In this document: positions 4,877-36,155 of the stretch, piece by piece
Numbering within the stretch: the first letter of the stretch is position 1
How the letters are laid out: each line of letters begins with the position of its first letter
The notes under the pieces: model-generated
Database searches by the model: none
What the model saw: the letters and a program-made list of their open reading frames with translations, nothing else
What the model was told of the DNA's origin: nothing
Program-made: the position numbers and the translations under genes
Assembly (NCBI RefSeq): GCF_025151215.1
Contig: NZ_CP102286.1
Span: 3,596,001 to 3,660,000, forward strand
Direction: 5' to 3'
DNA length: 64,000 bases
Source: Parabacteroides merdae ATCC 43184
Lineage (GTDB): Bacteria; Bacteroidota; Bacteroidia; Bacteroidales; Tannerellaceae

Positions 4877-4895
4877 TTAAAGAACTATCAACGAC

Positions 4896-6650: not shown

Positions 6651-6676
6651 ATGTGTAATCGATAAATGATAAGGAT

Positions 6677-14058: not shown

Positions 14059-15921
14059 TTATTTTATTTTCCGATAAATCATTTCCAAAGCCACTAATCT
14101 TGTCGTTTTACCGGCTTCTATGCCCGGCAGGTCCTTTCCGCTCAGTTTTTTCCAGGCGGTTAGAGTCGCCATATCCACCGGCTCCTGCAAACGTGCAGTC
14201 CATTCGGGAAGATAGCCGCGAAGTCCCAGATATTGCACCATGCGGAAGTGAGGACTCGTGTAATCCACATCCTTGAAATACATAAGTGTCGCCTTCTGGT
14301 CGACCAGCTTGTCCTGCAGACGGGAGAGGTCGATGTTCTGCACCTTCACCTTTCCGTCAATCGAAAGGGCGGAGGCGATACCAGCGGCCTGTCCCATTGC
14401 CATCCAGCAAGGCTCCATGCGCAGGGTGGAAAATCCGATGTGCGAACCCGACACCGGGACGGGCAACAGGAGGTTGCCCACTTCTTTCGGGACCATCACG
14501 CCATAGGGGACTGTGTATACTGCCGACGGATAGCTCAGGAAGCCGTCCAGATGCACTCTTCCTTCTTCTCTTTTCCGTACCGCATGCGAATCCAACGCAT
14601 AATGGCTCGCCGTTATGCTGCTTTGGTGGATGGGCGGGCGGCTACCGATCGTTACCGGAATGGCATCGTTGGCGGTAAAGAAATATGCACCTTCGAAACG
14701 ACGGCCTTCACGGACGTAGACCTGGCGCGGGAAATGTCCGTTGTCCGCATATTCGTCTTTCGAAAGTCCCCATTCTTTTGCTGCTTTGCGGAAGTGGGCG
14801 GGCAGTTCGGGGTCGTTTTGGGCGAACCAGAAAAGGCCTTCGGTGTATTCACGCAGACGTTGGGCGAACTTGTCGCGCCATTCCCACGAAGAGGTGGGCC
14901 AGGGCCAGTTCTCCTCAGGCAGGTCGGTCGATACGAACACACCGTGCTGGTTATTGGCGTCCGTCTTCATGTTCGGGACATGGACGATGTTGGTGATCTT
15001 GGCGATCCCCCATTTGTCTCCCGGAAGTTTGGAGGGGTTGCCGGCCTTGATATGTTTCCGGTTCTCTTCCATCATTTCGGGTGTCACGCGTTGCATGGCG
15101 GCATCCGTGTTGCGTCCGGTCCAGACATCCTCCACGATGGAGGCATAGTCTTCGCGGTTATAACGGGCCGGCTTGGTGAAGGCCACGCGGTTCGCAGGAT
15201 TATTGGTCAGACAGAGGCGGTAATTGTAGGACTGCACGGCATTGTCTTTCTTGAACGTGCTGCCGTCCCCTTCCGGACCGCCCCAATATTTGTAGACGCG
15301 CCCGGCTCCGGGCTCGCCGAACTCGTCTTTCCCTTCGCGCCCTACACGGAAAGGAACGCCGGCGGCAGCTCCGAGGTCACCTTCGTAGGTGGCATCCAGG
15401 AATACAGAACCGGTATATTCCTCCATCTCCCCGGTTTCGCGGTTCAGGATACGGATCTTTTCGATGCGGTTGTCGCGCATGACTATGTTTTCATCTTCGG
15501 CATCGAACTGGCGCATGGTCAGGACAGTGATCTTGTCCTTCTGCCCGTCGAGCATCTTCTGGAAGATGCGTGCCCCGACGGAGGGTTCGAAGTGGTAGCC
15601 GTCGCTGCATACTTTCACCTGCTCGGAGCCAGGACCGTAGGTGTCGATATAGTGTTGTTTCACTCCGTCCACAAACTCACGGAACAAGCCGGTCGTTGCG
15701 GCACGGGTGGCGATGTCGGTTGCTCCGAGTCCGTTGGCGGGAAGTCCGCCTACATAGCGGGTACGTTCGAGTATTACCGATTTTTTCCCCATCCGGGCAG
15801 CCGAGATGGCTGCCATGATCCCTCCGGGGTTGCCGCCGACGATCACCAGGTCGTAGGACGACTGGCCGAAAGCGGTCGCACAGGCCAAAAGGAGGGAGAG
15901 TACAAGTGTTTTCTTTCTCAT
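14059..15921 (-). CDS. Exported FAD-dependent oxidoreductase (620 aa)
   Basis: 620 residues of the FAD-dependent oxidoreductase family PF12831-type. A signal peptide (1-19, ending AFGQ) is followed by the dinucleotide-binding motif DLVIVGGNPGGIMAAISAAR (about 24-43) and the conserved ERTRYVGGLPANGLGATD segment. The motifs VFLDATYEGDLGAAAGVPFRVGREG and YNYRLCLT are shared with the paralogue at 18982-20982. It is last of three FAD enzymes in a sigma/FecR/SusCD operon, 7 bp after the 1000-residue one. It should act in the periplasm or at the surface. Reaction unknown; members are often annotated only at family level. Confidence 0.9.
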   Translation of the reverse strand: MRKKTLVLSLLLACATAFGQSSYDLVIVGGNPGGIMAAISAARMGKKSVILERTRYVGGLPANGLGATDIATRAATTGLFREFVDGVKQHYIDTYGPGSEQVKVCSDGYHFEPSVGARIFQKMLDGQKDKITVLTMRQFDAEDENIVMRDNRIEKIRILNRETGEMEEYTGSVFLDATYEGDLGAAAGVPFRVGREGKDEFGEPGAGRVYKYWGGPEGDGSTFKKDNAVQSYNYRLCLTNNPANRVAFTKPARYNREDYASIVEDVWTGRNTDAAMQRVTPEMMEENRKHIKAGNPSKLPGDKWGIAKITNIVHVPNMKTDANNQHGVFVSTDLPEENWPWPTSSWEWRDKFAQRLREYTEGLFWFAQNDPELPAHFRKAAKEWGLSKDEYADNGHFPRQVYVREGRRFEGAYFFTANDAIPVTIGSRPPIHQSSITASHYALDSHAVRKREEGRVHLDGFLSYPSAVYTVPYGVMVPKEVGNLLLPVPVSGSHIGFSTLRMEPCWMAMGQAAGIASALSIDGKVKVQNIDLSRLQDKLVDQKATLMYFKDVDYTSPHFRMVQYLGLRGYLPEWTARLQEPVDMATLTAWKKLSGKDLPGIEAGKTTRLVALEMIYRKIK

Positions 15922-15927
15922 AAAGTG

Positions 15928-18900
15928 CTATTTACTGTTTAATATTTCTTGGGCATAACGGGCATAGTGGCCTTGCAGACCGTCGGCATACCGGCGGAGC
16001 ACCTCTTCTCCGATACCGTCCTGGTCGCCGCATAGGTAAAGGGCTCTTGCCAAATGCAACTCCTTCAATGCGAGGTTACGGGTAGACGTGTCGTTGAGGT
16101 CGGGGACCGCATTGCTACGTGCTTCGGCAAATGAAAGGATCGAATGGCCCCGTACACCCGGTGTCGTCAGCATGGCCAGCAGTACGGGGACAGCTTCGCG
16201 GCTGCCGATTGCTTCGGTGGCCATAGTGATGGCACGGAAGTGGGAAAGATAGTCTTCCGGCTCCAGCTTCTTTGCTTTTTCCAATATGGTGGGAAGGACG
16301 GATGTATCGCGGGCGTTTCCCAATGCGGTGATAAGGGCATCCAAGCGGCTGAGGCACATCCCGAATTGTCCCATGCCGGTGTAGTGCCAGCCCTCGTCCC
16401 AGTTTTTATATTGCCGGATGGCTTCAGCCAGTACCGGGGCATGTTTCCCTTGTCCTAAGATACACAGGATGCTGGCAAGGATCACTCTCTCTTCCGGCAT
16501 AGTGGCTCCGGCGATTTGTTTGCTGGCGAGCTGTATGCAACGTTCGGGATCGGTTAGTAATATTTCGAGCCCTTTATAATTATCCGTCACGCTGGCGATA
16601 GCCTTCTTCATCTCGGAATTACTGAAACCTTTAAACTCCTTATCCGTCAGCACCCGTTGCGGCAGATTCCCGATCTCGACCAGGTGACGCTGCACCTTTT
16701 TGATATCTATCTTGCGCGGAGATTTATTTTCTTTGACACATAGGGCGGAGAGGTAGCCGACTGCATATCCCTGGTTTTGCAGGCAGGGCTGCATACGAAT
16801 CACCGGCATGACATCTCGGTGCGCACTTGCTCCCAGGCCGGTGGTCAGGATACCTTCCAATCCTTTCGGTAACAGGCAGCGCAAGGGGACATCTGCATCA
16901 TAAATCTTGTGGCGCTTTTCCGGTGGGTTTAGGATGAAGAGCGGGTCTATGATCATACCGTGTGTATCGAACGAACTTTTGTGATAAGAAATCGTGTCGG
17001 GATAGCGGCGATGGTTGATCACGTCGTATACCGAGATGATGTAGTCTCCGATTATCCGCCGGCGTTCGCGTGTCTGGGGGATTTTGACCAGATCGTATTG
17101 TCCTTGCAGTTTTGTTTTGGCTTGGACAAAAGCGCGTGATACATCCAGAATATCCGTGTCGTCTACGAACAGCCAGTCGTTGTTGTTGTAATAGTCGCCC
17201 GGCGCCCATTTTCCAGTTCCCGCACCTTGTACGGCGATTGTTTTTTTACCTGTATAATCGAATGCCGCTCCGGCAGCAATGGCTATATCTGCGCTTCCAG
17301 TGCTGTCTATCAATATTTTGGATAGGATGACGCCTCGTCCGAAGGGAGTGGCGACTACGACTCCCTTTACTTGGCTTCCTTCTATCAAAGCACCGCATCC
17401 CATCACGCCGAACCAGAGTTTGCCTCCTGCCTGTAACAGCTCTTTACGATGCCATTCCATTTTCCAGTCGGCAGGGAAACGTCCTTCTCCTTTGGGTTGT
17501 CTTGGATGGTCTTTAGGTGCCATTGCCAGGACACTCTTGTCTATATGAGCGGTATATCCGCCTCGGAACCCATCCCAATAGACACCGATCATTCCTAGTG
17601 TACTCAATCCTCCAAGCCCGTGCAGGTATTCCAATACCAATGTATTGGCTCCCTGTTTGGCTGCAGATATTCCGGCGGACGCACCTGCTGTGCCGCCTCC
17701 CATCACAACTACATCGTAGCTGCCTAAAACCGGAAGCGCACCTGCTGGAGAGGCGACGAACCCCTTTTGCAGGGACGGACGGAGTGGGGAGAGCAGTTCG
17801 CCTGTTTGTCCGTAGTTTGAAGCGTTTACTTTAAGCTGGCGGACAGTGGCCTGAGCTGGTACGGGTATATCCTTTATCTGCCTGGCTACTGTTTCGCCCA
17901 TCATTTCTCCTATGAACAGGGCCGGAACGGGGCGCATCACTTTGGCTGCCAACTCTCTTGGTATCTCAGCACAGGGACCGAGTACCCATAGGTTTGCAAT
18001 ATTCTTAGATTTGAATGCTTGCATCGGTAACTTGCGCCAGGACACCGGATTCCCGTTATATGCTTTCTCGCTGTTAATCGTTTGTTTCGGAATATACCAG
18101 AGCAGATCCGAGCTGTCGACCTGGTCTATATCCCATGTCCGGTTACGGATGATCTGTTCGACCTCGGCCAGTGATGCATACGAGTCGTCTTTGAGTGGTA
18201 AATGGAATGTATAGCGGGTGACCGGATAGCTTTTCTCACCAACCTTGATGGGCTGGGATAATTCTTCGGCCTGGATAATTTCCGGTGCTTCTTTCGGGGT
18301 ATTTCCTACTACGGTATAGCAGAATTCTTGCGAACCTGCGATAAAAGGTTTACGTTCTGCTCCTAATAGTCCGGCAACGGATGCATTGTGCGTCGCATCG
18401 ATAATCGCTTTGCAACGGATAGCCTGTCTGCCCGAACGGTTTGCAATCACGACTCCCGCAGGTTTACCGGACGGGTCCGTCAGCACATTCGTTACATAGC
18501 TGCTGTAGAGGAACTGTACGTTGTTGTCGATCAGCTCGTCTTCCAGCGTTTTCTTTATATGAAGCGGAGTCGGGAAATTTTTCCCCGGAAAGAGCTTGCG
18601 TGCAAGTGCTGTCTGCAGTTTTTCCCCTGCTTCTCGCTCGTAGAGATGTGAGCCGCATATGTCTTCACCCAGATAGGGCATATAGCCAACCAGGTAAACT
18701 CGACTACCTGTTTTCGCTGCGGCAACAGCAGCGGCAATAGCACGTGAACTTCCACCCGCGACCACAAGATCTACTTCTGCAATCACCGGAATCTTACGCG
18801 CCCCTTCATGGCAGAACCCTTCATCTGGAACGGCTGACTTCATGGCCGCTTTTGCTTCCGTCACGCTACCTAAAGAGGCTAATGCGCCTCCGGCTGCCGT

Positions 18901-18930
18901 TACTTTTAAAAAATCACGTCGTGTAATCAT
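15928..18930 (-). CDS. Twin-arginine exported protein with two FAD-binding modules and HEAT-like tail
   Basis: 1000 residues. The N-terminus has a Tat-type signal (TRRDFLKVTAAGGALASLG). A first dinucleotide-binding fold begins at VDLVVAGGSSRAIAAAVAAA (about residue 52) with a degenerate glycine motif; a second, canonical one is YDVVVMGGGTAGASAGISAA (about residue 403), followed by GLGGLSTLGMIGVYWDG. The last ~200 residues are helical pairs that look like HEAT-type repeats. Tat export fits a protein that folds with FAD before export. The order of modules, FAD-FAD-HEAT in one chain, is unusual. It is the middle of three FAD genes. Substrate unknown. Confidence 0.85.
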   Translation of the reverse strand: MITRRDFLKVTAAGGALASLGSVTEAKAAMKSAVPDEGFCHEGARKIPVIAEVDLVVAGGSSRAIAAAVAAAKTGSRVYLVGYMPYLGEDICGSHLYEREAGEKLQTALARKLFPGKNFPTPLHIKKTLEDELIDNNVQFLYSSYVTNVLTDPSGKPAGVVIANRSGRQAIRCKAIIDATHNASVAGLLGAERKPFIAGSQEFCYTVVGNTPKEAPEIIQAEELSQPIKVGEKSYPVTRYTFHLPLKDDSYASLAEVEQIIRNRTWDIDQVDSSDLLWYIPKQTINSEKAYNGNPVSWRKLPMQAFKSKNIANLWVLGPCAEIPRELAAKVMRPVPALFIGEMMGETVARQIKDIPVPAQATVRQLKVNASNYGQTGELLSPLRPSLQKGFVASPAGALPVLGSYDVVVMGGGTAGASAGISAAKQGANTLVLEYLHGLGGLSTLGMIGVYWDGFRGGYTAHIDKSVLAMAPKDHPRQPKGEGRFPADWKMEWHRKELLQAGGKLWFGVMGCGALIEGSQVKGVVVATPFGRGVILSKILIDSTGSADIAIAAGAAFDYTGKKTIAVQGAGTGKWAPGDYYNNNDWLFVDDTDILDVSRAFVQAKTKLQGQYDLVKIPQTRERRRIIGDYIISVYDVINHRRYPDTISYHKSSFDTHGMIIDPLFILNPPEKRHKIYDADVPLRCLLPKGLEGILTTGLGASAHRDVMPVIRMQPCLQNQGYAVGYLSALCVKENKSPRKIDIKKVQRHLVEIGNLPQRVLTDKEFKGFSNSEMKKAIASVTDNYKGLEILLTDPERCIQLASKQIAGATMPEERVILASILCILGQGKHAPVLAEAIRQYKNWDEGWHYTGMGQFGMCLSRLDALITALGNARDTSVLPTILEKAKKLEPEDYLSHFRAITMATEAIGSREAVPVLLAMLTTPGVRGHSILSFAEARSNAVPDLNDTSTRNLALKELHLARALYLCGDQDGIGEEVLRRYADGLQGHYARYAQEILNSK

Positions 18931-18981
18931 GGTATTCTCTTTTTATACTTGGTTTTTATGGGAACTATAAAGATAAGAATT

Positions 18982-20982
18982 TTATTTTTTAGGAACTAAT
19001 ATAATAGCATCGGCAAATAAGGCACCCTTCGAACGGCAGCCGTCAATCTTGATAGAAGATGTCCAGTTGCCTTTCTCAAACGCGTATGTGCCTAAACTTA
19101 CCCATGCACCTTTGTGAGATCTGGGAGATATTTCTACTTGCTTGGTCCCCTCTTTACCCGTAATGTCAAAAGCCATAACTTCGGGCATTTCCTGGTCGGG
19201 AAGAGCTGTGCAGTAAAAGAACACTTCGTATGTATCCGCCTTTTTAATAACAGGCATAAAGGTGAAAGAGCAATTGTTCTTTTGGTTCGCCGACTTTAAG
19301 AAGCTGTTCTTATAATGCGCTCCAAAGCTTTTTTGCCAATGTCCGGATCTTTCTATTTTGTCGATATCGCTGTCATCGACTAATATTTCGGGAGTAGAAC
19401 CGTCCAGATAAGGATTCTCTTTCAGGATTTTCCTTAGCTTGGTTACGTCTATTGTCTGGACGTCGGTATTATCGTCGATCGCTAATGCCGATGCTACGGC
19501 TGCCGACTGTCCCAGCACCATAAAGACCGGTTCCATCCGGATCGATCCGAAAGCGATATGGGTGGAAGAAATACATACGGGGACCAGTAGATTAGTACAT
19601 TCTTCGCGTTTAGGCGTAATGCTCTTGTACGAGATCGGATAGGGTGGGAAGCCATGATATTGGACATCCCCTTCATTTTTTACCATACCGTTTGTAACGA
19701 TACGTTGGCAATTATGAGAGTCCATTCCGTAGGCGGCCATTCCGATTGCATCTCCCACAGTCTCTTCCCCTTGGCAATTTTTTTGTGTCATGATATATTC
19801 CCCGTTCAGGCGTCGGGCTTCGCGCACATATAGTTGGGTCGGAAAGTTATCATTGTCAACAAATTCATCTTTCGCCCATCCGAATCTGGAAACCTGGTCG
19901 CGAAGTTTGGAAGGGACTCTTTCATCGTGTGTGAGGAAATAGAGCAGTCCTTTTGTATAGTCTACATGTTCTTGCCAGATCCGTTCGCGGGTTGCATAGT
20001 TGCCATCCGGATATTCGTAATTCATACCGATCATATCAGTTGATAGTGGTCCGCGATTATTCACGTCATACTTATTATCTGGCATCATACCCCAGTTAAA
20101 TAAGAGATAATTATCTATGTGTAAATCCATTTTACGGATAGCACGTGCCAATAGTTCATATTTGGCCGGATCATAGTTTTCAGGTTTTTCGAACGGACGT
20201 TGATTTTCTTTATTGTCGGTAAGGCATAAACGGAAATTGTATGCTTGTACGAGTTTATCTCCACTTCCTCTTTCTTTCAGTGTATTAGGTTGGATTCCCC
20301 AACATAAGCCACTATTCGGATCGCCTTCTTTTAGATATGGGTCTACTCCGTCCGGAAATTGATGCCAGAAAGACATCTGGACTCCATTAAGAGTCTCGTC
20401 GTATTCTTCGTTTCCTTCACGTCCGACAAAGTAGGAAACACCGGCTTTTGCCATTAAATCTCCTTCATACGAACAATCGATGAATTGTTTGGCTTTAACT
20501 TGTATCAAGGTCTTTTTGTCTGGTTTCTGGGAGTCTTCCAAAGTGATACTTTGTATTCTCTTATTCTGAACTTTAGCATTTGTTATCCGGCGATAATACA
20601 GGACATCTAAATCTGCATCTTTCACAAAGCGGTTCATGGTTGCTGTTGCGACACTCGGCGGAAAGGTCCATTGCTCGAATTTATTATAATGCTCTCCAAT
20701 GCGACGATAGAAAAGGCGTGCCAATCCGGTAACTGCATATTTGTTTCCGATATCTGTTGCACCTAATCCACCAGTAGTCATACCTCCTAAATATTTACCA
20801 GGCTCTACCAAAAGAACGGATTTACCCATCTTTTTTGCAGAGTAAGCAGCTACAACACCTGCGGATGTTCCTCCGTATATGCAAATATTGACTTCTTTGA
20901 CAGCGGATGTATTTTCCTTTTTTTGAAAATGGCAGGAAAATAATGTTATACAAAGAATACAAGGAAATAATTTATACTTCAT
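18982..20982 (-). CDS. FAD-dependent oxidoreductase lipoprotein with golvesin-like C-terminal domain
   Basis: About 666 residues from the ATG at 20982; an upstream in-frame extension to 21045 is possible, but this ATG gives a lipoprotein signal with lipobox LFSC (Cys17). FAD-binding motif: VNICIYGGTSAGVVAAYSAK (about 30-49), then VEPGKYLGGMTTGGLGATD. The middle part shares FIDCSYEGDLMAKAGVSYFVGREG and YNFRLCLT with the 620-residue paralogue. The C-terminal ~130 residues (from GHWQKSFG to LFADAIILVP) fit a golvesin/xanthan-lyase-type carbohydrate-binding-like domain. First of the three FAD genes, directly after susD and the 28-bp hairpin. Confidence 0.88.
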   Translation of the reverse strand: MKYKLFPCILCITLFSCHFQKKENTSAVKEVNICIYGGTSAGVVAAYSAKKMGKSVLLVEPGKYLGGMTTGGLGATDIGNKYAVTGLARLFYRRIGEHYNKFEQWTFPPSVATATMNRFVKDADLDVLYYRRITNAKVQNKRIQSITLEDSQKPDKKTLIQVKAKQFIDCSYEGDLMAKAGVSYFVGREGNEEYDETLNGVQMSFWHQFPDGVDPYLKEGDPNSGLCWGIQPNTLKERGSGDKLVQAYNFRLCLTDNKENQRPFEKPENYDPAKYELLARAIRKMDLHIDNYLLFNWGMMPDNKYDVNNRGPLSTDMIGMNYEYPDGNYATRERIWQEHVDYTKGLLYFLTHDERVPSKLRDQVSRFGWAKDEFVDNDNFPTQLYVREARRLNGEYIMTQKNCQGEETVGDAIGMAAYGMDSHNCQRIVTNGMVKNEGDVQYHGFPPYPISYKSITPKREECTNLLVPVCISSTHIAFGSIRMEPVFMVLGQSAAVASALAIDDNTDVQTIDVTKLRKILKENPYLDGSTPEILVDDSDIDKIERSGHWQKSFGAHYKNSFLKSANQKNNCSFTFMPVIKKADTYEVFFYCTALPDQEMPEVMAFDITGKEGTKQVEISPRSHKGAWVSLGTYAFEKGNWTSSIKIDGCRSKGALFADAIILVPKK

Positions 20983-21031
20983 AATGGCGATATTTATTAA
21001 TCGAAGTTTTAAAAATATTATTTCAATGGAT

Positions 21032-21089
21032 AATCGAAGCCTCAATTATGGATTTTCAACATTGAAAATCCATAATTGAGGCTTCGATT
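21032..21089 (-). terminator. Perfect 28-bp hairpin between susD and the FAD genes
   Basis: Arms 21032-21059 and 21062-21089 are exact reverse complements with a 2-nt centre, 9 bp after the susD stop. No U-tract follows on the minus strand, so it is more likely a partial terminator, RNA-stability or processing element than a full stop. It would set the ratio of SusCD to the downstream enzymes. Confidence 0.75.
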
Positions 21090-21097
21090 GCTAGAGA

Positions 21098-22936
21098 TTA
21101 ATACCCGTCGTTTTGCGTTAGGTTACCGTTGACCAAAATATCGTTAGCTGGAATAGGCCACAAATAGTTTTTCTTTGGGTCAAAAGACATTTTGTAGAAT
21201 GTAGTGATATATCCAGCGGTTTCCATAGGTGCAAGATTGGGCAGTCCGTTTTCATCGATTGTCGGTATGCCACCGATAGGATAGTAACCTTCGTCCCAGT
21301 TCTTTAACAAAGTTATGAAGTCTTGAGACAATTCGATGTTTGATTCACTGCCGGTCAAACCATTCCAATTGGCGGAGTTAGACCAGGCACGATTCAAGTA
21401 ATACATGGACTTGTTGTGTGATTTTTCAGCAATGCGCCAACGCAACAGGTCGCGATAACGAATCCCCTCGAATGCGAATTCCGAACGACGGTCCATGCGG
21501 ATGATTTTGCGTAAAGCCTCTTGTGATTGTACTTCTACGCGGGGGTAAGCGATACCTGTTTCGCGATAGGCACGTTCACGGATCAGATTGATCGTTTTGT
21601 CCAAGTCGTCTTGTGTACATTGTCCCATTTCGTTCTTCGCTTCCACGTAAGTCATCAGTACCTCAGCATAACGTAGGTATGGATAACAGTTGTCTGCTTT
21701 TAGATTATAATTGTTGAAATCTTTCCAGTCATCCTTCACAAATTTACGGAGAATCAATCCGTTATAAGCTGAATGTTGATTCGATGCTTTGGAGTCAGTG
21801 TTGACTACCATTTTACCGGTAGACACTTCGTATACCGTATTTGCATAAGGACTGGGATTGAATTCATAGCCTAATGTGATATAATCTGGATATTTTTCAG
21901 GAAATGTCCCATCTTTTTTGGACTGTTCATATTCTGCATAGTCAGCAGAGTATTTAGTTTTGAAAGGTTGGATTGTCATTGCCAGACGCGGGTCTCGGTT
22001 GGCAAATGGATCTTTCGGGTTATAGAGCGGTGATTTGTCAATAGGCAAACCGTCCGTGCAGGTGTAGGAACAGAACAGCTCCAATGATGGACTTTGGTTG
22101 CAATGGCCACCGATTTTGCGTATGACAAAGTCACGTACATTTTCCATGAAACCATATCCTTTTTTTAATGTCAAGTCTCCTTTGAAATAAAACATAAATT
22201 CGGGAGAACTGGTAGCTTGGAACATTTCCCGATAATTGTCGTGTAATTTGTAGACTCCGAGATCCATACATTTTTGTGCAGCATCAACGGCGGTTTGCCA
22301 GTCTTCGTGGAAGAGGGCAAAACGGGCTTTGAAACCGAGGGCGGCTCCTTTGGTCGGCCGTTGTTGACCTTTGTAGGAATTGGGCAGATATTCGGCCGCT
22401 TTGTCTAAACATTCAAAAGCATATGCAAGCACTTCGTTTTTGGGTGAGCGGGTTGCCACGTATGCTTCATCCAAAGTCATACCTTTATTCAACACGCAAT
22501 CTCCATAATAGGCAGTCAGTTCACAGTAGGCAAACCCTAACATGAAATAGGCTTCCCCCTTGTATTGGTTTACTTTGCTTTCACTGATTCCGGTCGCAGA
22601 ACCATTGTCCAATGCTTGAATTACTTTTGTTGCACGGGCGATGGACTTGTATAAGGAACTCCAGCGTGTGGAGGAGGTCCCCCATTGAGAAGTGACTGTT
22701 CCGAGCGTAACTTCGTTGGAACCATTTCGGTTTAACAAATCATCATCCCAATAGATGGCGTCAATCGGAAAGAAGTCTGGTCTCCACAAATCATTAAGTG
22801 CCATTTCTATTTCGGTTTCATCGTGATACCAATTTTCACTCGATCCTTCAGAAAGTGGATTTAGGTCGAGGTTTGCACAGGCTGTCATGCTTAGTGAGAC
22901 TATTCCGGTTAATAGATATTTGTTTATTTTGTTCAT
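21098..22936 (-). CDS. SusD/RagB family nutrient-binding lipoprotein
   Basis: 612 residues, lipobox SMTAC with Cys20. The family helices are visible: GEAYFMLGFAYCELTAYYGD (about 128-147), YLRYAEVLMTYVEAKNEM (about 421-438) and RRSEFAFEGIRYRDLLRWRIAEK (about 483-505), with the C-terminal YLWPIPANDILVNGNLTQNDGY end. It pairs with the SusC gene 16 bp upstream and should form the lid of that importer. The ligand is unknown, but the adjacent genes point to something handled by flavoenzymes. Confidence 0.95.
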   Translation of the reverse strand: MNKINKYLLTGIVSLSMTACANLDLNPLSEGSSENWYHDETEIEMALNDLWRPDFFPIDAIYWDDDLLNRNGSNEVTLGTVTSQWGTSSTRWSSLYKSIARATKVIQALDNGSATGISESKVNQYKGEAYFMLGFAYCELTAYYGDCVLNKGMTLDEAYVATRSPKNEVLAYAFECLDKAAEYLPNSYKGQQRPTKGAALGFKARFALFHEDWQTAVDAAQKCMDLGVYKLHDNYREMFQATSSPEFMFYFKGDLTLKKGYGFMENVRDFVIRKIGGHCNQSPSLELFCSYTCTDGLPIDKSPLYNPKDPFANRDPRLAMTIQPFKTKYSADYAEYEQSKKDGTFPEKYPDYITLGYEFNPSPYANTVYEVSTGKMVVNTDSKASNQHSAYNGLILRKFVKDDWKDFNNYNLKADNCYPYLRYAEVLMTYVEAKNEMGQCTQDDLDKTINLIRERAYRETGIAYPRVEVQSQEALRKIIRMDRRSEFAFEGIRYRDLLRWRIAEKSHNKSMYYLNRAWSNSANWNGLTGSESNIELSQDFITLLKNWDEGYYPIGGIPTIDENGLPNLAPMETAGYITTFYKMSFDPKKNYLWPIPANDILVNGNLTQNDGY

Positions 22937-22952
22937 AACAGGATTTTTTTAA

Positions 22953-25900
22953 TTAAAATGAAACATTCAAGCCAAAAATATAAGAAGACATGATCAAGTC
23001 TTTTGCGCGATCCCCCCATTCGGGATCGAATCCTTCGGGATATTTCGAGAAGGCAGGCAGGTCATTCGCACTGAAATAGACTCTCAACTTGTTAACAAAA
23101 AACTTCTTCGTGAATTCAGATGGGAGCGTATAACCTAATGTGATGTTTTTGATACGCATATAAGCTCCGTTGAAAATATAGAAGTCACTTTTTGCATAAA
23201 TATTGGCACTATTGGTCGTCAATTTCGGATATTTTGCCTTGGCATTTTCTGCATCCGTTGCTGTCGGACTCCAATGGCTTTCGATCAGATTTACCGGACA
23301 AGCATATGCTTGATAATTGAATGGTGTACCGGGCCAGTTCCAGTAGGCTAATTGATGTCCAACACCTTGAAATGATAAATTGAAATCCAAGCCTTTCCAT
23401 TCTGCCCATAGAGAGCCACCGTATTGCATTTCTGGTAGGGAATTGCCCAAGCGTACACGATCGGCGGAAGCAGTGATTTTGCCGTCTCCATCTATATCTT
23501 GGTAACGTATGTTACCTGCTTTATCGTTGTTAGTCAGAACTGGAATGGTATTTCCGTTTTCGTCCAACATGGCAGCATCATTCAAGATAATGCCCATACT
23601 TTTGTATCCGTACCATTCGTTAAAATAAGACCCTTCTTCAGTGATCTTGTTATCATCGATTTTCTGTCGGTTTGCCATGTATCCCATTTTAGAACGATAA
23701 TCGGACAAATTGAAACTTACACCGTATCTGAAATCGTTGATTTGATCGCTCCAGGAAAGTTCAAGATCCCAACCTTTCGTATTCATATCGGCTGCGTTGT
23801 TTTGCGGTGCGTTATAACCAAAATAAGAAGGGAATCCAACTTCCATCAGCATATCAGTTGTCTTTTTGTAATAATAATCGGCTGATGCACGAAGTCTGTT
23901 ATTTAGCAAAGTGATGTCAGCTCCGAAACCATAGGTGGTGGTCGTTTCCCATGTTAGGTTGTTGAAAGCATAGTCTGTCTGATAAGCCGTTTGTACGACA
24001 TCTGCTACACCTGTAGTTGCATTTGGAATAAAACCTGTGCCAAAACTGAGTATTGCTTGATAAGGAAACTCCTTCCCTAGACGTTCGTTTCCCAATTGTC
24101 CAATTGAACCGCGTAACTTTAAATAATCTACAATGCTTTTGTTGAACCAAGGTTCTTCGGAAATAACCCAACCTGCACTAACGGAAGGAAATGTACCCCA
24201 ACGGTGGCCATCAGCAAAACGTGGAGAACCATCTGAGCGAATATTAGCTTGCAGCATATAGCGATCTGCCCATGAATACATGATACGACCGAAGAATGAA
24301 CGATAGGCATTATGTCCAGCTTTTCCGCTATTGTATTGGTAGTCTTCAGGCCCTAAATTCAAGTAAGGATAATTGACCAAATTAAAATTGGTTCGTGAAG
24401 CACCTTCTTCTTCCCATTTGTAAGAATAATCTTCATAACCAGCCATCAATCCGATAGAGTGGCGTTTCAGTTGCATTTTATAGTTGGCATAGAACTGCTT
24501 AGTCAAGCTATGGTTGTCGTTACGACTTTCACTGAGACTAGTTGAAGCATAGCCAACTCCGGGAATCGGGTCACCGGTGATCCGGTAGACTTCGTATCTT
24601 TTGCGATGGTCTTTTCCTTTGTAAAAAGAATATTTTGGTGCTACGATGGCAGTTAATGTTAATCCTTCTATGGGTGTGATATCTAATTGTAATTTACCAC
24701 CCACACTGTAGTTCTGTTTTTTCATGGAACCGCCTAATTGGTGCTCGGCAATAGGGTTGTCACCATCTTTGCCATCGGCAAAACGTCCGTCAGACCAATA
24801 AGCATTGTAGATCGGTGCACGCTCCATTAAGGTAAAGATCGATCCGTGAGGTTCATTTGCGTTAGAATAGAGTAAATTCAAGTCAACATTGGCATGTATC
24901 CAATTATTGATTTGGTAGTCATTGTTCGTGCGGATATTGAAACGCTCGTAGTCTTTTGTTTGGATAAGTGCTTCCGAATTGTAATAGTTGAGACTGAAGT
25001 TTGTTTTCAGTTTTTCTGTACCTCCACTGAGCGAGAGAGAGTGTCTTTGGTGATGTGTGCTACTTTTCAATCCTAAATCCATAAAGTCGGTATCTGCATA
25101 GCGGTCCGGATCTTCAGCTCGTAGTTGTGCGTAATTGTTGATTACATCTTCGGAGTAAAGTGAATGGAGGGATGATGCACCATCGTTGAAAGCTAATTCG
25201 TTAAGACCACTCATCCATTGTACGGCATTAGCGAATTTAGGTTTTGCGGTCGGTGTGTTGATGCCGTATTCTCCATTATATGAAAGATGGAATTCCTTGT
25301 TTTTGGCACGTTTGGTTGTGACCAATATGACACCTGCCGCTGCGCGTGAACCGTAAATAGCAGCCGAAGCTGCGTCTTTCAAAACCTGAATGTCTTTTAC
25401 GTCTTCAGGGGCAATATCTGTAAGAGTGCCAGGCACTCCATCCACGATCACTAATGGGTCATTAGTTGACATGGTCGTGACACCACGTACGCGGATAGTA
25501 GCTCCGGCTGACGGGTCACCGCTGGAACGTGTGATCTGTACGCCGGCCATCTGTCCTTGTAATTGACTGGAAAGCTGCGGTGTACTCTTCATCCGAAGTT
25601 TGTCGCCTCCCAAAGAAGAGGTCGATCCTGTCAGGTCGATTTTGCGTGCCGTACCGTAGCCGATCACGACGACTTCATCCAATGTCTCCGAATCTTCTTC
25701 GAGGGTGATGTTGTAGGAGTTTTGTGAACCGACTTTTATTTCGGTCGGCTTGTATCCGATGTAGGAGATCGAAAGTATAGCACCTGGTGCTATACTGATG
25801 TTGAAGAGGCCTTCAACATCAGTAATGGACCCGTTAGTCGTTCCTTTCTCTACAACATTGGCTCCGATGATCGGGTCACCGTTATTGTCTAGGACTTTCC

Positions 25901-26300
25901 CCGTGATTTGCTTGGCCTGTTGTTGCCGTGCGTATGCTTTTCGCATAATGTTGATATTCCGATCGTTGATCGTATAAGTCAGTCCTGTTCCTGTCAATGC
26001 TTGTGTCAGGATTTCATCGATTTGATTACTGTTGGCCTTTATGTTGACTTTAATGTCTGCAACATCTTTATCTACATAGAAAAATAGGAATTCGCTTTGT
26101 TTTTCTATCTGTGAAAACAAGTCGGTGAGAAGCATCCGTTCAGTTTTGATGGATATCACTACCGATTGTGAATAGGTAGGTTCCGCTTGCATAGTGGAAG
26201 GTAAAACTGTTAATAGCGAAACCGCCGTAATTTTTGTAATTGCTACTAATTTTTTCAGGCTTTCAGGATGAAGATGCCTGTAATACGAAACATTTTTCAT
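22953..26300 (-). CDS. SusC/RagA TonB-linked outer membrane protein with STN signalling domain
   Basis: 1115 residues. After the N-terminal signal and membrane region (about 1-42) comes an STN (secretin/TonB short N-terminal) domain, about 48-118, then a CarboxypepD-like domain (about 132-210, GDPIIGANVVEKGTTNGS), the DEVVVIGYGT TonB-box region, plug with PLVIVDGVPG and AASAAIYGSRAAAG, and the barrel. The STN domain is the part that contacts FecR anti-sigma factors in the periplasm, matching the fecR and sigma genes directly upstream. It therefore should act both as importer and as the sensor that turns on its own operon. Confidence 0.95.
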   Translation of the reverse strand: MKNVSYYRHLHPESLKKLVAITKITAVSLLTVLPSTMQAEPTYSQSVVISIKTERMLLTDLFSQIEKQSEFLFFYVDKDVADIKVNIKANSNQIDEILTQALTGTGLTYTINDRNINIMRKAYARQQQAKQITGKVLDNNGDPIIGANVVEKGTTNGSITDVEGLFNISIAPGAILSISYIGYKPTEIKVGSQNSYNITLEEDSETLDEVVVIGYGTARKIDLTGSTSSLGGDKLRMKSTPQLSSQLQGQMAGVQITRSSGDPSAGATIRVRGVTTMSTNDPLVIVDGVPGTLTDIAPEDVKDIQVLKDAASAAIYGSRAAAGVILVTTKRAKNKEFHLSYNGEYGINTPTAKPKFANAVQWMSGLNELAFNDGASSLHSLYSEDVINNYAQLRAEDPDRYADTDFMDLGLKSSTHHQRHSLSLSGGTEKLKTNFSLNYYNSEALIQTKDYERFNIRTNNDYQINNWIHANVDLNLLYSNANEPHGSIFTLMERAPIYNAYWSDGRFADGKDGDNPIAEHQLGGSMKKQNYSVGGKLQLDITPIEGLTLTAIVAPKYSFYKGKDHRKRYEVYRITGDPIPGVGYASTSLSESRNDNHSLTKQFYANYKMQLKRHSIGLMAGYEDYSYKWEEEGASRTNFNLVNYPYLNLGPEDYQYNSGKAGHNAYRSFFGRIMYSWADRYMLQANIRSDGSPRFADGHRWGTFPSVSAGWVISEEPWFNKSIVDYLKLRGSIGQLGNERLGKEFPYQAILSFGTGFIPNATTGVADVVQTAYQTDYAFNNLTWETTTTYGFGADITLLNNRLRASADYYYKKTTDMLMEVGFPSYFGYNAPQNNAADMNTKGWDLELSWSDQINDFRYGVSFNLSDYRSKMGYMANRQKIDDNKITEEGSYFNEWYGYKSMGIILNDAAMLDENGNTIPVLTNNDKAGNIRYQDIDGDGKITASADRVRLGNSLPEMQYGGSLWAEWKGLDFNLSFQGVGHQLAYWNWPGTPFNYQAYACPVNLIESHWSPTATDAENAKAKYPKLTTNSANIYAKSDFYIFNGAYMRIKNITLGYTLPSEFTKKFFVNKLRVYFSANDLPAFSKYPEGFDPEWGDRAKDLIMSSYIFGLNVSF

Positions 26301-26417
26301 GCTTATGTATTGATTTAAGAGATTAATAATTTACTTGTTTCATGGTGTGACCCTGTTCGCTTAGTGTAGGTCTCAGTGCTACTTTTAACATTAGCGTTTT
26401 CTCATAGGCATTATTTT

Positions 26418-27401
26418 TTAGTGTGCATGTTGGATATGATAATTTCCTGTTTTATTCGTCCACCGTATAGGCAAACTGTGTGAGATTACTTTTAGGATCT
26501 GTTCTATGCTTTGTTTTTGATTGAATGTACCGGAAACGGTGATGGATGGATCTGCCAGTCTTTCATCATCAATCCGGATTTCTACTTGGTAGATGTCTTT
26601 CAAGTTCTCGATCAATTCGGTGAATGGAATCGATTTGTATTTCAACAGACCGTCTTTCCAAGCTGTGAAAGTGTCGGTGTCTATTTCTTTGACATCCACC
26701 TTGTTTGTCGACCGGTTGAAAGTCAGTTGTTGGTTTGGGGTCATCACGATATTTTGCTTTGCGCCTTCGAAACGGATGGAACCTTCCACAAGGGTTGCCG
26801 TGATATCGTCTGACTCTGCATCTGCCTTCACGTTGAAGTGCGTACCCAATACGGTGATAGAAGCACCGTTCATCTCTACTTGGAAGGGCTTGCTTGGATC
26901 TTTTGCCACTTCAAAATAGGCTTCACCTTCTAATTTGACGTTGCGGCTGTCTTTCCCGTATTTGTCGGAATAGCTTAAGCGGCTGTTTTTGTTCAATGTG
27001 ATGATGGTTCCATCTTCCATCGTGAAGTTGGAGGTATGTTCGTCTGTCAGCAAGGTGTAGTGTTCGGATATACGGTCATTTGTATTATAAAGGAAAAGGG
27101 CTGTTGAGAAAATGAAAAGCAAACAGGCTGCGGCAATTAGTGGAATGGCGTTTCTCCATAATTGCCGCCGGGCAGTCTGCCTTCTTTGTACATTGATCTT
27201 TTGTTGCAGTTTGTCGGCCGAGAAAGCAGGGGCAACGGAATGTTTGAAAGCGACATCTGCATCCCAATAATTCTTGAGACGTCGGAATTCATCTCGATTT
27301 TTTTCGTTTTCGTTCAGCCATTCACTTAACGAAAGGATATCGTCCGAAGAACTTTCTCCACTCAGGACACGTGCGATTATATGGTTTATTCTGTTTTCCA
27401 T
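26418..27401 (-). CDS. FecR-family anti-sigma factor
   Basis: 327 residues. Cytoplasmic N-terminal part (1-85) with an ESSSDDILSLSEWLNENE helix that binds the sigma factor, one membrane segment (about 86-106, LIAAACLLFIFSTALFLY), then the periplasmic FecR domain (DGTIITLNKNSRLSY, LEGEAYFEVAKDPSKPFQV, VLGTHFNVKA) and a C-terminal DUF4974-type domain (FTELIENLKDIYQVEIRID). In the known FecIRA-like scheme it holds the sigma factor until the STN domain of SusC reports ligand binding. It lies between the sigma gene and susC. The preceding gap of 237 bp contains a hairpin array. Confidence 0.95.
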   Translation of the reverse strand: MENRINHIIARVLSGESSSDDILSLSEWLNENEKNRDEFRRLKNYWDADVAFKHSVAPAFSADKLQQKINVQRRQTARRQLWRNAIPLIAAACLLFIFSTALFLYNTNDRISEHYTLLTDEHTSNFTMEDGTIITLNKNSRLSYSDKYGKDSRNVKLEGEAYFEVAKDPSKPFQVEMNGASITVLGTHFNVKADAESDDITATLVEGSIRFEGAKQNIVMTPNQQLTFNRSTNKVDVKEIDTDTFTAWKDGLLKYKSIPFTELIENLKDIYQVEIRIDDERLADPSITVSGTFNQKQSIEQILKVISHSLPIRWTNKTGNYHIQHAH

Positions 27402-27474
27402 TCTGTGTGTTTCTATATGTATAGTCGCTGGGAAGCGAGAATACCCTTAGTCGAAATGAGAAAAAGATAGAAAA

Positions 27475-27625
27475 TTTTCATCTGTTCCCATTCGGAGAAA
27501 ATAAATTTCCCACTGTGGGAAAATTTATTTTCAATAGGAGGAAACAAAATTTTCAATAGGTGGAAACAAATGTTTCCTGGGCATGAAACAGAAGTATCCT
27601 ATGCATGAAATTTTTGCTTCATGCC
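27475..27625. repeat. Array of short palindromes between sigma and fecR
   Basis: Between the sigma stop and the fecR start there is a run of related 15-20-bp units containing GGGAAA, GGAAAC, TTTCC or TTTCAT. The clearest palindrome is AAATTTCCCACTGTGGGAAA near 27503-27522, extended by ATAAAT/ATTTAT. Two adjacent units (about 27530-27547 and 27551-27568) read TTCAATAGGAGGAAAC and TTCAATAGGTGGAAAC. Further units with GGCATGAAAC and GCATGAAA follow to about 27612. No gene is visible. Confidence 0.7.
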
Positions 27626-27638
27626 AGAGTGTTGCTTT

Positions 27639-28199
27639 TCAGATGCAATCGTCGGCAAGTGTTTCCCGCAGTTTGCGGACGGCATTCGTCAAGTGTGCCT
27701 CCAATGTTTTGACGGAGATGTCGAGGATGGCAGCCACTTCTTTATATTTGAGCTTGTCCTCGCGGACGAGTTTGAAAGCCATCTTGCATTTGGCGGGTAG
27801 CGAGTCGATTGCCAAGTTCAGGCGGTGAATTCCTTCTTGGCTGATAAGCTCTTCTTCGGGAGTCGTTTCGGTCGATGTGAAAAGGTCGATGGAGATTTCG
27901 TCCAGCGATACCTGCTCCATGTGCTGTTTGCGATAATAGCTGATCGCCTTGTGGCGGGCTACCGTATATATGTAAGAATCGAAATTAGAGATGCCGGGTA
28001 GCTGTTTGCGGTTGTTCCAGATAGCTAAGAAGGTATCGGATACGATCTCTTCGGCTTCTGCCGGCGATGAGACATACATACCCGTAAATCGCATTAGTGG
28101 CCCGAAATAGGTCATGTAAAGCGATTTAAGAGCGGTTTGTGAATCCGATAAGGCCATTTCACAAGCCCACTGTATGATATCGTCTCGATTCTCTCCCAA
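27639..28199 (-). CDS. ECF RNA polymerase sigma-70 factor
   Basis: 186 residues from TTG at 28199; an internal ATG at 28157 would give 172. I kept the longer form because the DIIQWACEMALSDSQTALKSLY segment looks like the usual N-terminus of Bacteroidetes ECF sigma factors. Sigma region 2 is SLYMTYFGPLMRFTGMYV through ISNFDSYIYTVARHKAISYYRK; region 4 is the C-terminal HTH YKEVAAILDISVKTLEAHLTNAVRKLRE. It should direct transcription of the susCD-FAD operon and perhaps its own gene when released by the FecR protein. Confidence 0.92.
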   Translation of the reverse strand: MGENRDDIIQWACEMALSDSQTALKSLYMTYFGPLMRFTGMYVSSPAEAEEIVSDTFLAIWNNRKQLPGISNFDSYIYTVARHKAISYYRKQHMEQVSLDEISIDLFTSTETTPEEELISQEGIHRLNLAIDSLPAKCKMAFKLVREDKLKYKEVAAILDISVKTLEAHLTNAVRKLRETLADDCI

Positions 28200-28395: not shown

Positions 28396-30651
28396 ATGGA
28401 GACATTCTATCTCTTTCTGATCATTTTCCTCTTTGTGCTGGCGGTGTTTGACCTGTCAGTCGGAGTTAGTAACGATGCAGTCAATTTTATGAATTCGGCA
28501 ATAGGATCGAAAGCTGCATCTTTTAAAGTAATAATGGTGATTGCCGCGATCGGCATCTTTGTCGGTGCTTCGCTATCCAACGGAATGATGGATATTGCCA
28601 GGCACGGAATTTACCAGCCGCAACATTTCTATTTTTCAGAAATTATGTGTATTTTGCTGGCTGTCATGCTCACCGATGTGGTGTTGCTGGATATTTTTAA
28701 CTCTCTGGGGATGCCTACTTCGACTACCGTTTCGCTGGTATTCGAATTGTTGGGCGGTACGGTTGCAATTTCATTAATCAAGATTGCCAATTCTAATGGT
28801 GCACTCCAGTTGGGTGACCTGCTGAACACGGATAAGGCTTTTACGGTGATACTTGCCATTTTTCTTTCAGTGGCGATCGCTTTCTTTTTCGGGGCCATTG
28901 TTCAATACATTTCTCGCTTGATTTTTACTTTCAACTACAAGAAACACATGAACTATTTTATCGGCTTGTTCGGTGGTTTGGCTGCCACTTCCATCTTGTA
29001 TTTCATGTTGATAAAAGGTTTGAAAGAAAGTTCCTTTATGGAAGGTGATCTTAAAACGATGATTTATAGCAATACGGACACGATCGTGTGGGGAGCACTT
29101 ATCTTTTTCACTTTATTGATGCAGGTTCTTCACTGGTTGAAGGTGAACGTTTTTAAAGTGGTGATCTTGCTGGGAACGTTTGCCTTGGCTTTGGCGTTTG
29201 CCGGTAATGACTTGGTAAACTTTATCGGTGTTCCGTTGGCAGGCTATTCTTCTTATATGGATTTGATGGCGCAGGGAGGCACGACTACAACCGACACTTT
29301 CCTGATGGAGTCGTTGCTTGAACCGGCCAAAACCCCGTGGTACTTCCTTGTTGGTTCCGGCTTGGTCATGGTGATTGCCTTGGCTACTTCGAAAAAGGCG
29401 CAGGCGGTGATCAAAACGTCTGTAGACTTGGCCCGGCAGTCGGATGGAAATGAAAATTTCGGAACATCGCCCGTTGCACGTGTTCTGGTGCGTACGTGCA
29501 ACAATGCCTCCAATACGATATTGAGCGTGGTGCCTTTGCGAGTGAAGGACTGGATTGACAGCCGTTTCAATAATAACGAGATAATACTTGAAGATAAGGC
29601 CAGTTTCGACTTGGTGCGTGCTTCGGTGAATGTCGTGCTTTCCGGTCTGTTGATTGCGTTGGGTACTTCGTTGAAGTTGCCGTTGTCTACGACTTATGTC
29701 GCTTTTATGGTGGCGATGGGTAGTTCTCTGGCCGACCGTGCTTGGGGGCGTGAAAGCGCAGTTTACCGTATCACCGGTGTGCTCTCCGTGATCGGTGGTT
29801 GGTTTATTACGGCAGGTGCAGCCTTTACGATCTGTTTCCTGGTTGCTCTGTTGATCCATGTCGGTGGTATTGCGGCAATGGCGGCGATGGTGGGGCTGGC
29901 GATCTATATGCTGATCCGTAACCAGATTCTGTATAAAAAGAAGATGAAGAAGGAAGCCATGCAGGAAGAAGTTGATTCCACGATTTCCAAACTACGTGAG
30001 ACAAAGGACAAACGTGAAGCTCTTTCGCTGTTCCGTGAACATAGTCGCGACGAGCTTTGCGACGTGCTGAACTTCGCTTCCGACACTTTCAACCGCTCTG
30101 TTCATGGCTTTATGGATGAAAACCTGCGCGAACTTCGCAAGGTTATGAGCGCGATTGAGGAAAAGAAGAGTTACTTGAAACAGGTCAAACGTGTCGGCAC
30201 GTTGGGCGTTACCCAGTTGGAGCATGATATTGCGATCGATAAAGGTTTGTACTATTATCAGGGGAATGATTTTGCCAGCGAGATCGTGTTCAGTATCCGT
30301 CGTCTGACGGAGCCAGGCAAAGAGCATGTCGACAATCATTTTAGCCCGCTTTGTGAAGTACAGAAGGAGGATTTCGGAAAGATGACCGATGAGATCGTTT
30401 CTTTCCTGAACCGCAGTTCGGTTATGATCGAAAGCAATGATTACCATCGTATGGATGACCTGATTGCCGAATCGGTCGATCTGACGGCTAAACTGACGCT
30501 TCTGAAGAAGGAGGAACTGAAACGTATCCAAGGACAGAGCGGTAGTACGAAGGTCAGCATGGTCTACCTAAATATGGTACAGGAAGCGCAGAATGTGGTA
30601 TCTTTTACGGCAAATTTACTGAAGGTGAGCCGGAAGTTCCAAAAAGAATAA
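28396..30651 (+). CDS. Inorganic phosphate transporter, PiT family, with long C-terminal tail
   Basis: 751-residue inner-membrane PiT/PHO4 family protein. The signature motif occurs twice as the family requires: VSNDAVNFMNSAIGS near residue 24 and AGNDLVNFIGVPLAGYSS near residue 270. The membrane domain ends at about residue 515; the remaining ~235 residues are soluble and helical (STISKLRETKDKREALSLF onward) and include PhoU-like helical bundles, possibly for regulation. Family members without a tail have about 400-530 residues. It neighbours the phosphonate-degrading operon that releases phosphate, but is separated from it by a palindromic repeat and the minus-strand regulator. Confidence 0.9.
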   Translation: METFYLFLIIFLFVLAVFDLSVGVSNDAVNFMNSAIGSKAASFKVIMVIAAIGIFVGASLSNGMMDIARHGIYQPQHFYFSEIMCILLAVMLTDVVLLDIFNSLGMPTSTTVSLVFELLGGTVAISLIKIANSNGALQLGDLLNTDKAFTVILAIFLSVAIAFFFGAIVQYISRLIFTFNYKKHMNYFIGLFGGLAATSILYFMLIKGLKESSFMEGDLKTMIYSNTDTIVWGALIFFTLLMQVLHWLKVNVFKVVILLGTFALALAFAGNDLVNFIGVPLAGYSSYMDLMAQGGTTTTDTFLMESLLEPAKTPWYFLVGSGLVMVIALATSKKAQAVIKTSVDLARQSDGNENFGTSPVARVLVRTCNNASNTILSVVPLRVKDWIDSRFNNNEIILEDKASFDLVRASVNVVLSGLLIALGTSLKLPLSTTYVAFMVAMGSSLADRAWGRESAVYRITGVLSVIGGWFITAGAAFTICFLVALLIHVGGIAAMAAMVGLAIYMLIRNQILYKKKMKKEAMQEEVDSTISKLRETKDKREALSLFREHSRDELCDVLNFASDTFNRSVHGFMDENLRELRKVMSAIEEKKSYLKQVKRVGTLGVTQLEHDIAIDKGLYYYQGNDFASEIVFSIRRLTEPGKEHVDNHFSPLCEVQKEDFGKMTDEIVSFLNRSSVMIESNDYHRMDDLIAESVDLTAKLTLLKKEELKRIQGQSGSTKVSMVYLNMVQEAQNVVSFTANLLKVSRKFQKE

Positions 30652-33267: not shown

Positions 33268-34056
33268 ATGAAAAAGATTTCATGTGTGATTATGGACTGG
33301 GCCGGAACGGCTGTCGATTTCGGCTGTTTTGCCCCTTTGAATGCTTTCCTGAAAGTTTTCTCTGAAGAAAAAGGAATTGATATAACCTACCGGCAGGCGC
33401 GTGAGCCGATGGGATTGTTGAAAATAGATCATATCAAGGCGATCCTGAATATGCCGGAAGTAAAAGCCAAATTTCAGGTTCGCTATAACCGTGACTGGAA
33501 CATGGACGATGTAAACGAAATGTATCGGAGCTTCGAAAAGCATTTGTTCTCGTCTCTCCGCAACTTTACGGATCCGATCCCCGGTGTGCTGGATACGATG
33601 AAGCTGTTGCGTGAAGAAGGAATTAGAATCGGTTCTACAACAGGCTATACACAGGCGATGATGGAAGTGGTTCGTCCCGATGCGGCAGCTAAAGGCTATG
33701 TGGTGGATAACCTGGTTACTCCGGATGATGTTCCCGCCGGGCGTCCTGCCCCGTATATGATCTATAAGAATATGATCGACTTGGCTATTCCTTCCGTTGA
33801 TAATGTGGTGAAGGTAGGAGACACGATCGCCGACATCAAGGAAGGAGTGAATGCCAAAGTATGGAGCGTCGGCATCGTGACCGGTAGCAACGAGATGGGA
33901 TTGACAGAAGAGGAATACAACCACCGTTCGTCCGACGAATTGATCGAACTCAAGCGCGAAGTGCGTGAACGGATGCTGAATGCCGGTGCCCATTTTGTCT
34001 TGGACAACATTATGGAGCTCCCCTCCTGCATTGAGAAGATTAATGGTAAATATTGA
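33268..34056 (+). CDS. phnX: Phosphonoacetaldehyde hydrolase (phosphonatase)
   Basis: 262-residue HAD-superfamily enzyme that cleaves phosphonoacetaldehyde to acetaldehyde and phosphate. Seen: nucleophile Asp10 in MDWAGTAVDFGC, the cap-domain Schiff-base lysine Lys52 in REPMGLLKIDHI, STTGYTQAMM (motif II region), and KVGDTIADIKEG as the acidic motif. The length equals that of characterised phosphonatases. It lies between the DUF5690 transporter and phnW; the phnW ATG follows 17 bp after the stop. It acts in the cytosol in the second step of 2-AEP breakdown. Confidence 0.96.
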   Translation: MKKISCVIMDWAGTAVDFGCFAPLNAFLKVFSEEKGIDITYRQAREPMGLLKIDHIKAILNMPEVKAKFQVRYNRDWNMDDVNEMYRSFEKHLFSSLRNFTDPIPGVLDTMKLLREEGIRIGSTTGYTQAMMEVVRPDAAAKGYVVDNLVTPDDVPAGRPAPYMIYKNMIDLAIPSVDNVVKVGDTIADIKEGVNAKVWSVGIVTGSNEMGLTEEEYNHRSSDELIELKREVRERMLNAGAHFVLDNIMELPSCIEKINGKY

Positions 34057-34073
34057 TTTATAATAAGGATATC

Positions 34074-36106: not shown

Positions 36107-36155
36107 ATTTATGATTTATGAATTATGATCGACATATAAATCATAAATCACAAAT
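36107..36155. terminator. AT-rich inverted repeat between convergent genes
   Basis: GATTTATGATTTATG-type repeats at 36107-36124 face ATAAATCATAAATCA at about 36136-36150. They separate the PAP2 and GH3-family stops; the latter's last residues ICDL come from the repeat. Confidence 0.5.

Follow-up and report, generated by a model that had tools for sequence, protein, structure and literature searches.

Hydrolases are the usual means by which polysaccharide utilisation loci are identified and their substrates predicted. A broad-specificity keto-glycan pathway has reportedly been described by Nasseri et al. in 2024, and the class to which CarA and PurA belong is that of the GMC-type flavin adenine dinucleotide (FAD) glycoside oxidases. 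In the available part of PMC12724307, CarA and PurA are FAD-dependent C-glycoside 3-oxidases that act together with C-glycoside lyases. Oxidation followed by elimination is also carried out by nicotinamide adenine dinucleotide (NAD)-dependent enzymes, namely LgdA, LgdB1, LgdB2 and LgdC in the case of levoglucosan, and glycoside hydrolase (GH) families GH4 and GH109 (excerpt of PMC10066097). Maribacter forsetii has a SusC/D pair with a neighboring FAD-dependent oxidoreductase; the accessible text of PMC11345257 names this protein for two glucose samples out of three. Here we analysed a 64,000-nucleotide window of Parabacteroides merdae ATCC 43184 (positions 3596001-3660000 of a 4.38 Mb single-contig genome; coordinates below count from its first nucleotide) and found an operon in which a SusC/SusD pair under an extracytoplasmic function (ECF) sigma factor and FecR is followed by three exported flavoproteins of family PF12831, the only enzymes recognisable in it.

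The seven genes run on the minus strand from 28199 to 14059 in the order ECF sigma, FecR, SusC, SusD, FADgol, TAND and FAD620, as the original prediction, made from the sequence without database searches, had proposed, and Pfam and NCBIfam profile searches of all seven proteins support a family for each. The operon and its two flanking genes are as follows.

27639..28199, minus strand: ECF sigma factor (TIGR02985, 144 bits; TTG start)
26418..27401, minus strand: FecR anti-sigma factor (FecR 68.9 bits, FecR_C 48.2 bits)
22953..26300, minus strand: SusC/RagA TonB-dependent transporter (TIGR04056, 923 bits; CarbopepD_reg_2 and Plug; weak N-terminal STN)
21098..22936, minus strand: SusD lipoprotein (SusD_RagB, 140.9 bits)
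18982..20982, minus strand: FADgol lipoprotein (PF12831, 381 bits; Golvesin_C, 59.2 bits, a golvesin/xanthan-lyase-type C-terminal domain)
15928..18930, minus strand: TAND, exported by twin-arginine translocation (Tat), 1000 residues (PF12831, 203.5 bits; TAT_signal, 25.2 bits)
14059..15921, minus strand: FAD620, 620-residue protein (PF12831, 293 bits; signal peptide by eye)
11475..13448, plus strand: GH20, flanking gene outside the unit, convergent, 0.6 kb past the operon
28396..30651, plus strand: PHO4-family phosphate transporter (PiT), flanking gene outside the unit (family match)

From FecR to FAD620 the intergenic gaps are 117, 16, 115, 51 and 6 bases. A scan for minus-strand terminator-like sites, at chance as a whole (17 found, 16.0 expected), gave none in the gaps from SusC to FAD620 and one, at 27522-27506, between sigma and FecR. 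Both an adjacent susC/susD pair and an ECF sigma factor with FecR are present. Consistent with the original prediction, the profile searches recognised no carbohydrate-cleaving enzyme, lyase, sulfatase, esterase or peptidase among the seven proteins, GH20 being a convergent flank. SusC itself was confirmed, but the STN domain assigned to it (PF07660, residues 79-121) scored 23.4 bits, under the Pfam cut-off of 28.4, while those in the SusC proteins of the genome's two other PF12831 loci scored above it (55.4 and 44.2 bits). Among solved chains, the best sequence match of SusD was BF1063 (3i4g), with a weak match to NanU (30.4 bits), and comparison of SusC and SusD with solved chains indicated no clear ligand.

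All three flavoproteins pass the PF12831 (FAD_oxidored) cut-off of 27 bits, and each carries an export signal, as had been predicted: a lipobox, identified by eye, that makes FADgol a lipoprotein, a Tat signal in TAND and a signal peptide in FAD620. The genome has two matches to TatC. The start of FADgol was taken as ATG 20982 instead of the TTG in the list of open reading frames (ORFs), and the protein was searched as a 665-residue piece (18985-20979); it matches a protein named P. johnsonii at 94%, in line with the close relatives that the genes of the window have in Parabacteroides, and it has at least 7999 relatives, every scored candidate lying at E <= 1e-20. The tandem FAD domains ascribed to TAND did not hold up. 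TAND has one complete flavin domain, the second, with GxGxxG and the ribose-binding E/D in 65/65 alignment rows and the R-E-x-R-R and D-x-H motifs in 64/65 and 65/65. The first domain retains the fold but is degenerate; the second glycine of its dinucleotide motif is S or T, and the FAD-ribose acid at residue 82 is missing, in all 65 rows, with R-E/D-x-R-R in 0/65 and D-x-H in 1/65. The tail (residues about 740-1000) is all-helical. PF00890 (FAD_binding_2), the family of exported flavin reductases of fumarate-reductase type, is above cut-off in FAD620 and TAND, but the match spans just the initial 72 and 37 positions, respectively, of the 414 in the profile, and no flavoprotein of the three matches the GMC family at E <= 0.001. 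FAD620 residues 21-88 weakly match cellobiose dehydrogenase 1kdg (22.7 bits), at the FAD-binding start only. A fold search for the substrate returned only generic flavoprotein matches, a result that does not exclude families outside those lists. TAND homologues also occur on contigs labelled Clostridia-type bacteria or Limnochordia (L044, L045, L046, L066 and L095; L and G numbers denote compared loci and genomes). Cytoplasmic relatives of TAND may exist, since L044 and L045 as read begin without a Tat signal.

The chromosomal site was compared across 38 genomes of the genus at E <= 1e-150, where the transporter was found in 36, GH20 in 16 and TAND in 16. TAND lies between transporter and GH20, as in the P. 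merdae region, in G049, G014 and G086 as well. In two genomes the transporter and GH20 are 1.8 kb (G063) and 5.0 kb (G081) apart with none of the genes from sigma to FAD620 between them; a Porin_O_P gene is found there in both, and an additional TonB receptor in G081. In a third, G098, a GH97 gene stands at this site together with sigma (73%), FecR (54%), SusC (35%) and SusD (23%), and other genes follow toward GH20. Because the site is empty in two relatives and occupied by a related GH97-bearing locus in the third, the set from sigma to FAD620 is a discrete unit, and the flavoproteins therefore stand where a glycan-utilisation locus has its enzyme slot. The site is not identical in all genomes, since TAND in G060 is 13 kb from GH20 and the transporter 51 kb off. 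GH20 was ruled out as a member of the unit and assigned to the flanking chromosome, because it persists where the locus is absent.

Upstream, PhnX phosphonoacetaldehyde hydrolase and PhnW 2-aminoethylphosphonate transaminase (33268-35171, plus strand; both above curated cut-offs) form a 2-aminoethylphosphonate catabolism cluster with a DUF5690 gene at 31885 and the PHO4 transporter at 28396. A link of the locus to this cluster was ruled out, the locus being missing from the site in relatives and having other neighbours elsewhere. The window also holds a second SusC/SusD pair (1598-7555, plus strand), followed by an Exo_endo_phos protein, and a GH3-family protein of PF03321 type (36144-37655, minus strand) near a PAP2 gene; we take the PF03321 type to be the plant auxin-conjugating family and not a glycoside hydrolase.

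Recurrence was examined at the best 80 of 85 loci found with TAND, many of which end at contig edges and many of which are mutually related. Genes there are naive ORFs, and distant SusC/D, FecR or sigma genes may be missed because their labels came from similarity to the P. merdae proteins. SusC or SusD lies within the same-strand run at 30/80 loci, with a further FAD gene in 27 of these 30; over all loci a further FAD gene is in the run at 44/80, or 41/80 once possible split TANDs (L033, L080, L092) are removed. Restricting the count to loci with 2.5 kb or more on each side leaves 52, of which 25 have SusC/D and, without the three possible split TANDs, 29 a further FAD gene and 31 either. SusCD-FADgol-TAND is the order in Parabacteroides and on one Tannerella contig. 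Contigs of unclassified Bacteroidota, and those labelled Prolixibacteraceae or as genera of it, show another arrangement, in which SusCD is combined with one to three FADgol genes and TAND, often with CstA. In 78 genomes of the P. merdae family (E <= 1e-100, contiguity read from coordinates), TAND was found in 22, FADgol in 18 and FAD620 in 21; TAND adjoins FADgol in 8, and FAD620 in 9 intact cases and, in G023, a broken one. The predicted co-occurrence of these FAD families with SusCD was borne out as a recurrent association and not as a fixed set. As to whether the FAD genes are scattered in relatives, they are jointly present or absent at the site, and homologues also lie near GHs, sulfatases and Gfo/Idh/MocA proteins.

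At L022, SusC (42%) and SusD (29%) are of another type, but FADgol (89%), TAND (72%) and FAD620 (91%) are kept, and in G049 FADgol is missing from this site. Extra FAD620 copies (G049, G060; L100:10353-12212, L114:7049-8908) stand next to a Gfo/Idh/MocA protein and to other SusC and SusD genes; those at L100 and L114, 97-98% identical to the P. merdae FAD620, appear to be recent, arising from duplication of one FAD gene or from its gene conversion between loci.

Of the 30 SusCD runs, 25 showed no recognisable hydrolase, lyase, sulfatase, esterase or peptidase, a figure that leaves out small ORFs and some distal ORFs, with 23 of the 30 runs reaching the end of the stretch examined. The five exceptions carry sulfatases and an esterase (L020), an M14 peptidase (L040), esterases (L051 and L072) or GH92 (L055). 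No glycosidase was recognised in the run at L036, where a GlcNAc-2-epimerase, a Sugar_tr transporter, DUF4434 and an ROK protein are encoded. Elsewhere, homologues lie near GH2, GH28, GH29, GH36, melibiase, GH43, GH88, rhamnosidase and sulfatases, and Gfo/Idh/MocA and PF01261 proteins adjoin the FAD homologues in some relatives. Two other sigma/FecR/SusCD loci of the P. merdae genome itself also include PF12831 proteins, and both are accompanied by hydrolase genes: an esterase and an alpha-L-fucosidase-type gene at L097:3288-18252, and GH2-type genes at L098:6299-17392, the fucosidase-type gene and a GH2 gene being apparently split or truncated as read.

CstA, of a family linked to pyruvate and peptides, is in or beside the FAD units of L020, L052, L054, L058, L059, L063, L064, L065, L067, L073, L086, L089, L093, L094 and L096, mostly Prolixibacteraceae-labelled or unclassified Bacteroidota, with one Proteiniphilum, and its position relative to the FAD genes varies, marine operons being among those that contain it; at L104 a CstA-like ORF stands beside FAD620 and GH88. 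As an obligate partner CstA was rejected, the single CstA of P. merdae being far from the locus, and its presence is not diagnostic because 16 of 18 family genomes examined have one.

We read the locus as an uptake system of polysaccharide-utilisation type in which flavoproteins replace the hydrolases and carry out periplasmic oxidation of a carbohydrate ligand, and put this reading at about even odds (roughly 0.5). A sugar ligand is favoured by the enzyme slot, the lectin-type domain of FADgol and the carbohydrate neighbours, and a redox role by the conservation of three flavin domains. SusD and SusC would bind the ligand at the outer membrane, and the operon would be switched on through FecR and the ECF sigma factor, as is typical of these families. 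What would pass into the periplasm is most likely a small glycoside or oligosaccharide, and there FADgol with its lectin-type domain, domain 2 of TAND, delivered folded via Tat, and FAD620 may each catalyse its FAD-dependent dehydrogenation, with sugar hydroxyls as the likeliest target. Once oxidised, the sugar would be prone to elimination, or would be imported and catabolised by genes elsewhere. Among 430 ORFs in the runs of the 80 loci, a haem motif was found in one (L096) and a ferredoxin-like motif in one (L083). The probable destination of the electrons is therefore menaquinone or some other general acceptor, unless the cycle is redox-neutral and needs none.

Several observations weigh against this carbohydrate-oxidation reading. 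The FAD genes are patchy, with the trio contiguous in only 6 of the 22 TAND-bearing family genomes (genera g1, g5, g11 and g12), and the close relatives L017, L019 and L101 lack FADgol or have another gene in its place. No dedicated electron acceptor gene was recognised among the 430 ORFs. Solved chains align by sequence with the FAD domains only across the FAD-binding part, so active-site chemistry cannot be read from them. The commonest TAND neighbour is CstA, with 14 of 98 scanned proteins against 4 for the next; these 98 are from 129, the other 31 being mostly long, duplicate or housekeeping-like (those of L055, L086 and L043 were scanned separately). Given the family's link to pyruvate and peptides, this adjacency would fit a non-sugar product. 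The ligand could be an aromatic, a terpenoid or another small metabolite that the flavoproteins saturate or desaturate in the manner of fold relatives such as geranylgeranyl reductases and flavin reductases. We consider this unlikely, though worth keeping in view, as homologues elsewhere are surrounded by carbohydrate enzymes, GH97 stands at the equivalent site in G098, FADgol has a lectin-type domain, and the fold matches are generic for the flavoprotein class.

The scarcity of haem partners, the placement of the flavoproteins where G098 has GH97, and the presence at L036 of an epimerase and a transporter for sugars and an ROK protein, without a recognised glycosidase, would also suit flavoproteins that cleave the ligand themselves, with FAD transiently oxidising a sugar hydroxyl, elimination at the glycosidic bond, addition of water and re-reduction by the same flavin. 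However, we know of no flavoenzyme that performs redox-neutral glycoside cleavage, menaquinone could accept electrons without a dedicated gene, and ordinary GHs often adjoin the homologues, which makes this route very doubtful despite NAD-dependent precedents (in the portion of PMC10066097 consulted). Equally speculative is its extension, that exported PF12831 flavoproteins are flavin-dependent redox-neutral glycosidases or lyases, the counterpart of GH4 and GH109; if true, SusCD loci without a recognised hydrolase would be a utilisation class built on oxidation and elimination. The limited contiguity of the trio, the occurrence of each gene alone and the exchange of SusCD type at L022 may instead suggest loose accretion, SusCD and FAD genes having become neighbours through transfer while the FAD proteins work in other pathways. 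This we find the hardest to credit, since FADgol-TAND-FAD620 is contiguous across four family genera, SusCD-FADgol-TAND appears again on Prolixibacteraceae-labelled contigs, and the genes come and go together at one site.

With similar sets recurring in related bacteria, the locus looks like a genuine, little-studied way of processing imported nutrients. Since utilisation loci are usually recognised by hydrolases, a recurrent SusCD unit with only flavoproteins recognisable escapes such prediction. One identified substrate would inform on many gut and marine bacteria, because the relatives of FADgol are very many and no solved chain matches the FAD domain beyond its FAD-binding part.

The locus had been proposed as an undescribed system, and no published SusCD locus with flavoproteins as its only recognisable enzymes was found in the literature searched, most subscription papers being outside it. 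The Maribacter forsetii pair is like it in placing an FAD oxidoreductase near SusC/D in Bacteroidota, a passing mention; unlike here, the available part of PMC11345257 states no flavoprotein family and discusses no function. With CarA and PurA, the P. merdae locus would share an FAD oxidation of the sugar moiety that opens glycoside breakdown; as far as the available part of PMC12724307 allows comparison, it differs in that its flavoproteins lack a GMC match, are exported and stand within a SusCD locus whose operon has no recognisable lyase gene. The levoglucosan, GH4 and GH109 routes likewise start glycan cleavage with a redox step, and Gfo/Idh/MocA and PF01261 proteins neighbour the FAD genes in some relatives; those routes are NAD-dependent in the excerpt of PMC10066097, whereas the P. 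merdae operon has no such gene and no Gfo/Idh/MocA domain. A further likeness is to the well-known polysaccharide utilisation loci regulated by ECF sigma and FecR, with an STN-type SusC: the order sigma, FecR, SusC, SusD is common to both, and such a locus with GH97 occupies the same chromosomal site in G098. Unlike them, the P. merdae operon, with no recognised hydrolase, lyase, sulfatase or esterase, has three PF12831 proteins.
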